Below, piece by piece: positions 1 through 2,083 of a DNA stretch of 44,948 nucleotides. A model generated the notes under the pieces. That model was not told the DNA's origin. It searched no databases and saw only the letters and a program-made list of their open reading frames with translations. Numbering within the stretch: position 1 is the first letter of the stretch; each line of letters opens with the position of its first letter. Location of the stretch: IMG/VR virus record IMGVR_UViG_3300021142_001189, positions 1-44,948 of that record, one strand, 5' to 3'. The position numbers were made by a program, and so were the translations under genes. The stretch is from a virus.

Positions 1-151
1 CTTCGTTGATTTCTTCGTCGAGTGTAAAGCCATAACTGAATCCACTGCATCCTCCACCTTGTACAAAGGTACGTAATGCTACTTTAGGATTGTTTTCTTC
101 AAGTAAAATGTCCTTGATTTTTGTTTTTGCAGACTCGGAAATAGTGATCAT
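1..151 (-). CDS. A-type iron-sulfur carrier (IscA/ErpA/HesB family), C-terminus cut by window edge
   Basis: The reading frame starts at ATG 149-151 and runs off the window start, giving the first 50 residues. It begins [16 protein letters not shown] and contains the family motif [13 protein letters not shown], with the cysteine at residue 35 as in bacterial IscA. The C-terminal CxC cluster ligands lie outside the window. The family binds and passes on Fe-S clusters to apo-enzymes in the cytoplasm. An AGAGG ribosome binding site and an ATAAATA late-type promoter precede it. A phage copy could supply clusters to the twelve [4Fe-4S] radical SAM enzymes encoded here; that link is inference. Confidence 0.9.
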
Positions 152-167
152 AATTGCCTCTTTGTAA

Positions 168-174
168 TATTTAT
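168..174 (-). promoter_or_regulatory. T4-like late promoter core (ATAAATA) for the Fe-S carrier
   Basis: On the minus strand GATAAATATTAC lies 17 nt upstream of the Fe-S carrier start, with AGAGG between them. T4 late promoters have TATAAATA as their -10 element. This one is back-to-back with the plus-strand motif at 197-203. Confidence 0.5.
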
Positions 175-196
175 CAAAGCGTTTTATAACCTTAAT

Positions 197-203
197 GTAA
201 ATA
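197..203 (+). promoter_or_regulatory. Late promoter core variant (GTAAATA), 5 nt before the start codon
   Basis: TGTAAATA is followed after five bases (CAGTT) by ATG 209. If transcription starts about 6 nt downstream, as in T4 late promoters, the message would be practically leaderless. The same arrangement recurs at several genes in this window. Confidence 0.45.
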
Positions 204-208
204 CAGTT

Positions 209-496
209 ATGTATATCAGAACAGAAGTCAGACAAAACCACTATGTGCGTAGCAGTAACCGTGGCAAAACACACACCTATGTGCGTGAAAAACAAGTATT
301 GGTATTTAGATGTGACTGTTGTACAGAAGTGTTTACTCGAGATAAAGGATCAATGGATCCAAAAAGATTAAACAATAATGTATATCACGTATGCAGTAAT
401 TGTGATGCTAAGAAATTTGCCCAGGCTAAAGGCGTAGAAAGTCGTAAAGTTTGGAGTATGCCTGCTAGTAGTCTTAAGACGTTAGACCAACTTTAG
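209..496 (+). CDS. Small zinc-ribbon-like phage protein
   Basis: A 95-residue basic protein. Cysteines at 35, 37/38, 62 and 65 form a CxCC...CxxC arrangement typical of a zinc ribbon or zinc knuckle, between a basic N-terminal arm ([15 protein letters not shown]) and a basic tail. Such small phage proteins usually bind nucleic acid or a polymerase subunit, but I do not recognise a named family. It has no evident Shine-Dalgarno; a GTAAATA motif sits 5 nt before the ATG. Its 3' end overlaps the convergent gene at 493-1227 by four bases, leaving no room for a terminator. Confidence 0.75.
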
Positions 497-1227
497 TTTC
501 GTGTATCAGGTGGGCTATGTATATAAGTAACATTTAAGTTATGAGTATCGGCTCCATTAGTAACACCAATATAATGCGTTGGGTATTTGGCAATTAGATG
601 TTTTGCGTAGGCTTCTGCTTCAGGTCTAGTCTGGAATTGTTTTACTGGTTTCCAAGTTCGATTACTCAATCCGCTACCTACGACTCTACCCGCCTCATCG
701 TGAGTATCAGCTATTTGATTAATTTTAACAGTAAAAGGACCTAAATCTTTTGGTTTACGCTTGCGTGGTTCAGGAATAGGCTTGCCGTCTGTTAATACCA
801 TCACCCAACTGTCGATAGCAGGATCATGGAATATTTCAGGTAAGTATCCCTGGCATTCTGCAATATCTTCTTCTGCAAATTTGTGTTGATTAGCATCATC
901 ATCTGCGTCATAATCTATTAACATATTGTGCTTAACAGCCATGTTGTAGATGTATTCTTCTACAGCATCTTCTCCTTTTTTGGCTAATTTTAATTTCTGT
1001 TCTGGAGTCATCTTCCTAAAAAGGTTAATGCCAAAATTTATAGCCTGGCGGAAATTGAAATGCGGATTATCTAGTTCTGCTACACTCCCGCCCATTGCAA
1101 ACATATCTGGGTCAGGCAGAGGAGCCGGAGCATCGACACGGTCACCTAGTGTATTGTTCATAAACCCGACAAATTTTGGATCATTTATTGGTTTTTTGGC
1201 TTCTTTAATTATTTCCCAGATTCTCAT
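493..1227 (-). CDS. Phage protein of unknown function with a possible capsid-targeting N-terminus
   Basis: A 244-residue protein that I do not recognise. It opens MRIWEIIKEAKK, which fits the short hydrophobic-amphipathic N-terminal peptide of T4 internal head proteins ending in a gp21-type cleavage site (I/L-x-E before A/G/S): here I-K-E followed by A at residues 7-10. The middle is acidic (DYDADDDANQHKFAEED, about residues 104-120) and the C-terminal part, with QTRPEAEAYAKHLIAK, looks like a small alpha/beta domain. ATAAATA lies exactly 5 nt before the ATG, with no Shine-Dalgarno. A late, internally packaged protein is a reasonable guess, not a demonstrated one. Confidence 0.7.
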   Translation of the reverse strand: MRIWEIIKEAKKPINDPKFVGFMNNTLGDRVDAPAPLPDPDMFAMGGSVAELDNPHFNFRQAINFGINLFRKMTPEQKLKLAKKGEDAVEEYIYNMAVKHNMLIDYDADDDANQHKFAEEDIAECQGYLPEIFHDPAIDSWVMVLTDGKPIPEPRKRKPKDLGPFTVKINQIADTHDEAGRVVGSGLSNRTWKPVKQFQTRPEAEAYAKHLIAKYPTHYIGVTNGADTHNLNVTYIHSPPDTRN

Positions 1228-1232
1228 AATAA

Positions 1233-1239
1233 TATTTAT
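1233..1239 (-). promoter_or_regulatory. T4-like late promoter core (ATAAATA), 5 nt before the start codon
   Basis: The minus strand reads AATAAATATTATTATG, with ATG at 1227. The spacing would give a near-leaderless late transcript. Confidence 0.5.
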
Positions 1240-1258: not shown

Positions 1259-1819
1259 CTATCTAGCAAAACCAATCCTACTTGAGATAATATTCCAGTT
1301 CATAATTTTCCACTGGTTATTGAGATATGATTTTTTGTCACTTCCGTAATCGAATTGAAATGAGTGTTCCCACCAATCAACTAGCAAAACAATATCCATT
1401 TTAATTTCGTGATTCTTAATGGTCTTGATCTTGCCATCACGTGCTAGATAAACCCACCCGCTACCTTGTATCTTCATGGCTTCTTTTTCAAAGGCATCTG
1501 TAAATTTGTCAAAAGTTTTAAAGTGTTTTGTTATAAATTCACCAGCTGATCCGTCTGGTTCGTTTGATCTTGAGGGCTTTTGGAATTGAGTAAAGTAAAT
1601 GTCGTGTAGGAAAGCGCCTGCTTCATTGAAATCTGCATCGCCTTCGCCGTCATTAAATCGCGTAACATACCCTTTGTATAGTTTACCATAGTGGTAGTTA
1701 ATAGTGTCCTCACTCATACTAGGCTCTAAATCATCCTTGGCATAAGGTAACTTAGTTTGTACTAGAGTTTTGGGACTTTTACCTTCGTTTAAACTAACAT
1801 ATCGAATAAAGTTATACAT
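1259..1819 (-). CDS. Fe/Mn superoxide dismutase with T4-like capsid-targeting N-terminus
   Basis: Iron/manganese superoxide dismutase, converting superoxide to hydrogen peroxide and oxygen. From the chosen start (186 aa) the four metal ligands are present: His43 in NYHYGK, His72 in FLHDIYF, and Asp148 and His152 in LLVDWWEHSF. SGWVYLARDGK and the C-terminal NQWKIMNWNIIS also match the family. The first 14 residues, MYNFIRYVSLNEGK, are not part of the SOD fold. They resemble the T4 capsid-targeting peptide with an L-N-E/G prohead-protease site. An in-frame ATG at 1834 exists, but the start at 1819 lies five bases after GTAAATA and gives the better targeting peptide. Metal choice (Fe or Mn) cannot be decided by eye. 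Confidence 0.93.
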   Translation of the reverse strand: MYNFIRYVSLNEGKSPKTLVQTKLPYAKDDLEPSMSEDTINYHYGKLYKGYVTRFNDGEGDADFNEAGAFLHDIYFTQFQKPSRSNEPDGSAGEFITKHFKTFDKFTDAFEKEAMKIQGSGWVYLARDGKIKTIKNHEIKMDIVLLVDWWEHSFQFDYGSDKKSYLNNQWKIMNWNIISSRIGFAR

Positions 1820-1824
1820 AATGA

Positions 1825-1831
1825 TATTTAC
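1825..1831 (-). promoter_or_regulatory. Late promoter core variant (GTAAATA) for the SOD gene
   Basis: The minus strand reads GGTAAATATCATTATG; five bases separate the motif from the ATG at 1819. A second, weaker TTAAATA lies at 1838-1844. The motif supports the shorter SOD start. Confidence 0.4.
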
Positions 1832-1832
1832 C

Positions 1833-1839
1833 ATAAATA
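1833..1839 (+). promoter_or_regulatory. T4-like late promoter core (ATAAATA)
   Basis: CATAAATATTTAACTAGGAG precedes the plus-strand gene at 1859; the motif ends 19 nt before the ATG and the leader contains a TAGGAGA ribosome binding site. It is divergent from the SOD promoter. Confidence 0.5.
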
Positions 1840-1858: not shown

Positions 1859-2083
1859 ATGGGATTTATATCTAAACTTTTCGGGTTCATAAAACCTACA
1901 GAAGAAAAAGCTGAAGTACCTTACAAAGTTGAAGCACCGGCAGTAAGTCCAGTGGCGGACCAAGCTTCACAAGCTATGGTCGAGTCAGTAGCACCAGCTA
2001 AGAAAAAGCCAGCAGCCAAAAAAGCCGCTGGCGAAAAGAAGCCACGTGCTCCACGCAAGCCAAAAGAGCCTAAAGCAGAGTAA
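1859..2083 (+). CDS. Small Lys/Ala/Pro-rich basic protein, histone-H1-tail-like
   Basis: A 74-residue protein. A short hydrophobic amphipathic start (MGFISKLFGFIK) is followed by an acidic-neutral linker, then a low-complexity tail from about residue 47 with repeated AKKKPAAKKAAG and KPRAPRKPKEPK blocks. That tail composition is typical of histone H1-like or nucleoid-binding tails, so DNA or RNA binding is likely; the function is otherwise unknown. It has its own ATAAATA late-type promoter and a good ribosome binding site. The last 14 bases overlap the convergent uvsE gene. A packaged DNA-condensing protein is possible but unproven. Confidence 0.8.
   Translation: MGFISKLFGFIKPTEEKAEVPYKVEAPAVSPVADQASQAMVESVAPAKKKPAAKKAAGEKKPRAPRKPKEPKAE

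Follow-up and report, generated by a model that had tools for sequence, protein, structure and literature searches.

A conserved, predicted cleavable N-terminal tag on phage superoxide dismutases suggests packaging in the virion head

The window, a virus fragment of 44,948 bases, encodes an Fe/Mn superoxide dismutase (SOD) with a short N-terminal tag resembling the capsid-targeting propeptides of T4 internal proteins. The best explanation, to which we give a probability of roughly 0.8, is a late, capsid-targeted SOD that is processed by a gp21-family protease and packaged in the head. The intact enzyme would be made late in infection. Residues 1-12 would act as a T4-type targeting sequence and bring it into the prohead core, where the protease would cut after Leu-Asn-Glu12. 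The mature SOD, from Gly13 onward, would stay inside the DNA-filled head. It may exit with the DNA, like T4 internal proteins, and clear superoxide from the newly infected cell ahead of any phage gene expression. It could also protect the DNA within the particle.

Freshwater phage SODs have already been described, as ROS-defence genes (PMC6802176), and the usual reading makes phage SODs cytosolic helpers of metabolism. Searches of a set of open-access papers turned up no description of a capsid-targeted one. If the packaging reading is true, a conserved cleavable tag across many lineages makes phage SODs virion cargo, and the T4 internal-protein system extends to a complete cellular-type metabolic enzyme. 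A late-type promoter at the start codon, a short hydrophobic leader and L/I-x-E before G/A/S would then provide a signature for head-carried enzymes in uncultured jumbo phages. The cultured relative PA5oct makes phage delivery of antioxidant enzymes directly testable.

Enzyme core and N-terminal tag

Features of the SOD locus, with positions in the window
Feature	Position	Strand	Basis
Fe/Mn superoxide dismutase precursor, 186 aa; stop codon 1259-1261	1259..1819	-	Pfam, AlphaFold, Foldseek, invariant metal ligands
Proposed capsid-targeting propeptide MYNFIRYVSLNE, residues 1-12	1784..1819	-	Motif conservation, purifying selection, low pLDDT
Predicted mature SOD from Gly13	1262..1783	-	Confident predicted SOD fold falls inside
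TAAATA late-promoter-like element, 5 nt before SOD ATG	1825..1830	-	Window sequence
Divergent TAAATA facing the small basic-protein gene 1859-2083(+)	1834..1839	+	Window sequence
Downstream neighbour, possible second tagged cargo, N-terminus MRIWEIIKE/A	493..1227	-	Homologues L001, L140
TAAATA, 5 nt before the neighbour's ATG	1233..1238	-	Window sequence; same arrangement in homologues

The SOD core is intact, as the sequence-only reading had claimed. Both Pfam domains are present (Sod_Fe_C, PF02777, 9.6e-21; Sod_Fe_N, PF00081, 3.7e-11). The metal ligands H43, H72, D148 and H152 (window numbering) are invariant in an alignment of 39 diverse phage SODs that are 42-92% identical to the window SOD, and so is the NH pair 136-137. 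An inactive SOD is improbable, given the invariance of the ligands in these sequences. The AlphaFold model, with the 39-sequence alignment as input, has a mean pLDDT of 89.9, and the listed Foldseek matches are SODs. Residues 1-15, predicted as disordered, have a pLDDT below 50, with the confident SOD fold beyond; judging from the model, the loss of residues 1-12 would spare the entire fold. The fold and the metal ligands are common to cellular SodFM enzymes (B. fragilis SodFM2, E. coli SodB), whereas the aligned solved bacterial enzymes have no N-terminal extension. The alignment of NH 136-137 points to another difference: the phage SOD appears to have His, not Gln, at the C-terminal water-coordinating position. 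His is commoner there in Fe-preferring SODs (PMC10172142).

The N-terminus reads MYNFIRYVSLNEGKSPKTLVQTKLPYAK, with the predicted cut after Glu12 (MYNFIRYVSLNE/GK; slashes mark cut sites). The LPY motif of the core starts at residue 24. Since window residues 19-24 align with about residues 3-9 of solved bacterial SODs, the extension measures approximately 16 residues over cellular SODs. It had earlier been counted as 14 extra residues; the extension stands and its length is corrected.

Viral contigs searched with the SOD as query gave 256 related stretches, and the alignment query at least 550. Among 45 unique close relatives, Glu12 is present in all, with both Glu codons used, and Gly13 in 44. 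Residues 2-14 have a pN/pS of 0.118 versus 0.136 for residues 23-60 in the same set. Purifying selection constrains the SOD N-terminus as strongly as the catalytic core.

The 39 diverse SODs were gathered by whole-protein homology, and their starts were chosen blind to the motif. Glu12 is the sole invariant residue between start and catalytic core (39/39), which upholds the initial observation of L-N-E before G as an L/I-x-E consensus. The P3 residue is L in 24 sequences, I in 14 and V in one; P1' is G in 19, A in 8, S in 6 and another residue in 6, thus G/A/S in 33/39. Propeptides are 7-14 residues long, compared to 12 in the window. All 39 have [LIV]-x-E at residues 7-15, versus a mean of 8.9 and a maximum of 19 after shuffling of residues; the sequences share descent and are not independent trials, and the shuffle test is a guide, not a probability. 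The leaders before the cut site diverge, as in MAYNFIQKFIVE/G, MREIITLIE/S and MDLRQTINLIE/A, and further in MYDIVEKISE, MRAVEFLTE and MIKIILE. A processed targeting peptide should look like this, with a constant cleavage motif preceded by a hydrophobic leader that varies. Two SODs with distant N-termini were excluded from the alignment, one with I-M-E at residue 6 (L131) and one with L-L-E at about residue 19 (L161). At the level of sequence, the tag and its cleavage motif can be taken as established, and so can the conservation of both.

L/I-x-E near the N-terminus is not rare in itself and shows no genome-wide excess in the 223-kb relative G006. A chance motif was ruled out by the shuffle test together with the codon-level selection. 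Inheritance of the extension from a close bacterial source was also rejected: the scan of genome contigs found no close cellular relative; distant ones are possible. The SOD of Vibrio phage 2.275.O (L096:2968-3537) is without an N-terminal tag. Its C-terminus is extended and ends KMLDESVNIRHLINFISK; the L-D-E preceding S there may mark a C-terminal propeptide. A scan with this SOD as query found no relatives.

The likeness to T4 lies in a short N-terminal propeptide with L/I-x-E and then a small residue. According to the T4 record (AF158101), IPII and IPIII begin MKTYQEFIAE/A and IPI begins MKTFKEFTSTTTPVSTITE/A (...TITE/A). T4 propeptides have 10-19 residues, gp21 cuts after L/I-X-E, and targeting is mainly set by propeptide residues 4 and 7 (PMC9026906). 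The window peptide has hydrophobic or aromatic residues at both positions (F4, Y7) and LNE ending at Glu12. Some distant leaders shift the register and do not match position by position; SODs with MAYNFIQKFIVE/G resemble MKTYQEFIAE/A more closely than the window peptide does. A gp21-family protease encoded by relatives of the window phage is a further parallel. The system differs from the T4 internal proteins in its presumed cargo, a complete cellular-type SOD, in its highly variable leaders and in a promoter element that abuts the start codon. T4 Alt, an ADP-ribosyltransferase, is carried in the head and processed by gp21. It is a precedent for a gp21-processed enzyme packaged in the T4 head, but it is unrelated to SOD and is processed at both ends. 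Its C-terminal processing is described in PMC9026906.

Late promoter element and prohead protease

The sequence-only reading had placed the start codon by a late-type motif, and the homologues agree. Among 97 unique homologous SOD starts, 79 have TAAATA 3-7 nt ahead of the ATG, compared to 1.6% in shuffled upstream sequence; in 64 of the 97 the distance is exactly 5 nt. A longer in-frame ATG at 1834 (MVNIIMYNF...) is not conserved; residues upstream of ATG 1819 vary between loci, and only this ATG is conserved. A misplaced start codon was ruled out by the fixed TAAATA spacing and the loss of conservation upstream.

In G006, the motif NATAAATA occurs within 40 nt upstream of genes 18 times in sense and 5 times in antisense orientation (p = 0.005), and within 100 nt 27 versus 6 times (p = 0.0002). 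TAAATA also precedes genes resembling tail sheath, baseplate and head-core genes. With this strand bias and placement, TAAATA resembles a late promoter in G006, and we infer that the SOD is probably made late in infection. Assuming T4 promoter geometry, the 5-nt gap would let the SOD transcript start at or beside the A of the ATG, possibly as a leaderless mRNA.

The sequence-only reading had also proposed a search for a gp21-like protease. It succeeded in relatives that carry the head module and not in the window contig, a fragment without head genes in which Pfam gave no match to PF03420 over the 44,948 bases. The gp21-family protease is present in G006, G005 (161 kb), G016 (282 kb) and G018 (385 kb) as well as in PA5oct and Vibrio phage 2.275.O. 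Full-length matches to the G006 major capsid protein were obtained in five of ten records searched, and the same five hold the protease. In large contigs without the protease, e.g., G017, the capsid gene is missing too, and these contigs probably represent fragments. None of the 14 control genomes gave a signal in the Pfam protease search, so the absence of the protease from fragments is uninformative. The nearest matches to the G006 capsid protein come from jumbo T4-superfamily phages, e.g., Phosso, 2.275.O, CBB and GAP32. The genes for the IscA-like protein, the 209-496-type protein, the SOD and the small basic protein have the same order in G006 and the window, and this conserved order makes G006 usable as a proxy for the window phage. 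By synteny, the window phage itself would encode the protease. Targeting, cleavage and packaging of the SOD are strongly supported by the analogy with the T4 system and the protease co-encoded in relatives. In PA5oct, EST35_0152 (L098:34079-34711) is annotated as a prohead scaffolding protein and overlaps a PF03420 match (7e-25).

PA5oct and the fate of the enzyme

The nearest cultured relatives are PA5oct-type jumbo phages, with SODs 38-39% identical to the window SOD. The PA5oct/MIJ3 enzyme resembles it in a tag-like MNDSIKKYISIAE/A, the beginning of PA5oct EST35_0261 (sodB), and in a gp21-family protease in the same genome. It differs in being annotated as a hypothetical protein, and no description of a tag was found there. 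EST35_0261 carries the note 'ESI-MS/MS', among 93 listed CDSs with this note. The set includes ribonucleotide reductase, thymidylate synthase, GTP cyclohydrolase and ClpP; because these cytosolic enzymes bear the same note, it may partly reflect their carry-over. Of the predicted PA5oct proteins, 12 of 90 tagged and 13 of 360 untagged ones have an N-terminal [LIVFM]-x-E with A/G/S/T/N/D after it (p = 0.001); the pattern was chosen after examples had been seen. In G006, [LIVFM]-x-E showed no excess over internal methionines, and in PA5oct a pattern of hydrophobic spacing (regex B) failed to distinguish the MS-tagged proteins from the untagged ones.

The enzyme may be an ordinary cytosolic auxiliary SOD that protects host and phage, with an extension that serves folding, stability or translation start, for example. 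The published view of freshwater phage SODs as ROS-defence genes (PMC6802176) agrees with this, and the mass-spectrometric detection in PA5oct is common to clearly cytosolic enzymes. We consider it improbable: it leaves unexplained an L/I-x-E that stays invariant, with G/A/S after it, where the leader before it diverges, the location of this motif in the part with a pLDDT below 50 and the late-type promoter. Less probable still is a SOD fold recruited as a structural protein of the head core with no enzymatic use. Some internal head proteins are structural, and nothing direct favours this role for the SOD; the four metal ligands and NH 136-137 are invariant in the 39 sequences, as in an active enzyme.

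For a packaged and processed SOD, the site of action is a separate question. It may act only in the particle, guarding the DNA inside against oxidative damage in sunlit freshwater. The packaging evidence for this is identical to that for the best explanation, and the relatives would originate from freshwater metagenomes, judging from a literature match (PMC6802176). Against a role confined to the particle, T4 internal proteins and E proteins of giant phages enter the cell (PMC9026906, PMC5694885), and we regard such confinement as rather unlikely. An injected SOD is a tentative proposal, placed somewhat higher. The enzyme carried in the head, perhaps along with further tagged proteins (those with MRIWEIIKE/A and MKIWELLNE/G) made from a common late and possibly leaderless cassette, would act in the host at the very onset of infection, ahead of phage gene expression, to counter oxidative stress or an oxidative defence. 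Injection and a role in the cell have a weaker standing than packaging, and nothing here separates the particle-only from the injected role.

Neighbouring genes

N-termini similar to that of the SOD, which the sequence-only reading had suggested looking for, were found on the downstream neighbour, on a protein in L004 and on several MS-tagged PA5oct proteins. The neighbour had no Pfam or PHROG match and is confined to the nearest relatives, L001 and L140; the L140 homologue begins MRIWEIIKE/G, with TAAATA likewise 5 nt before the ATG. The MKIWELLNE/G protein of L004 adjoins the SOD of L004, and L062 encodes a LysM protein with MRIKEIISE/E; both start 4-5 nt after TAAATA. The shared arrangement points to a late cassette that can be reused for tagged proteins.

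Several other genes of the window were recorded. A small cysteine-containing protein is encoded at 209-496(+), with no significant Pfam match. Genes of this type are convergent with the SOD in most relatives, often overlap its 3' end and usually start 4-5 nt after TAAATA. The gene at 1859-2083(+), divergent from the SOD and behind TAAATA, encodes a small basic protein rich in Lys, Ala and Pro with a conserved VPYKVE segment; the protein could be DNA-binding or packaged. An IscA/HesB-like iron-sulfur protein, identified by eye, is encoded near the SOD at 2-295(-) and is a neighbour of the SOD in G006 as well. Between 6505 and 38959, many genes resemble, by eye, radical SAM enzymes and 2-oxoglutarate/Fe(II) oxygenases, at a density unusual for a phage.
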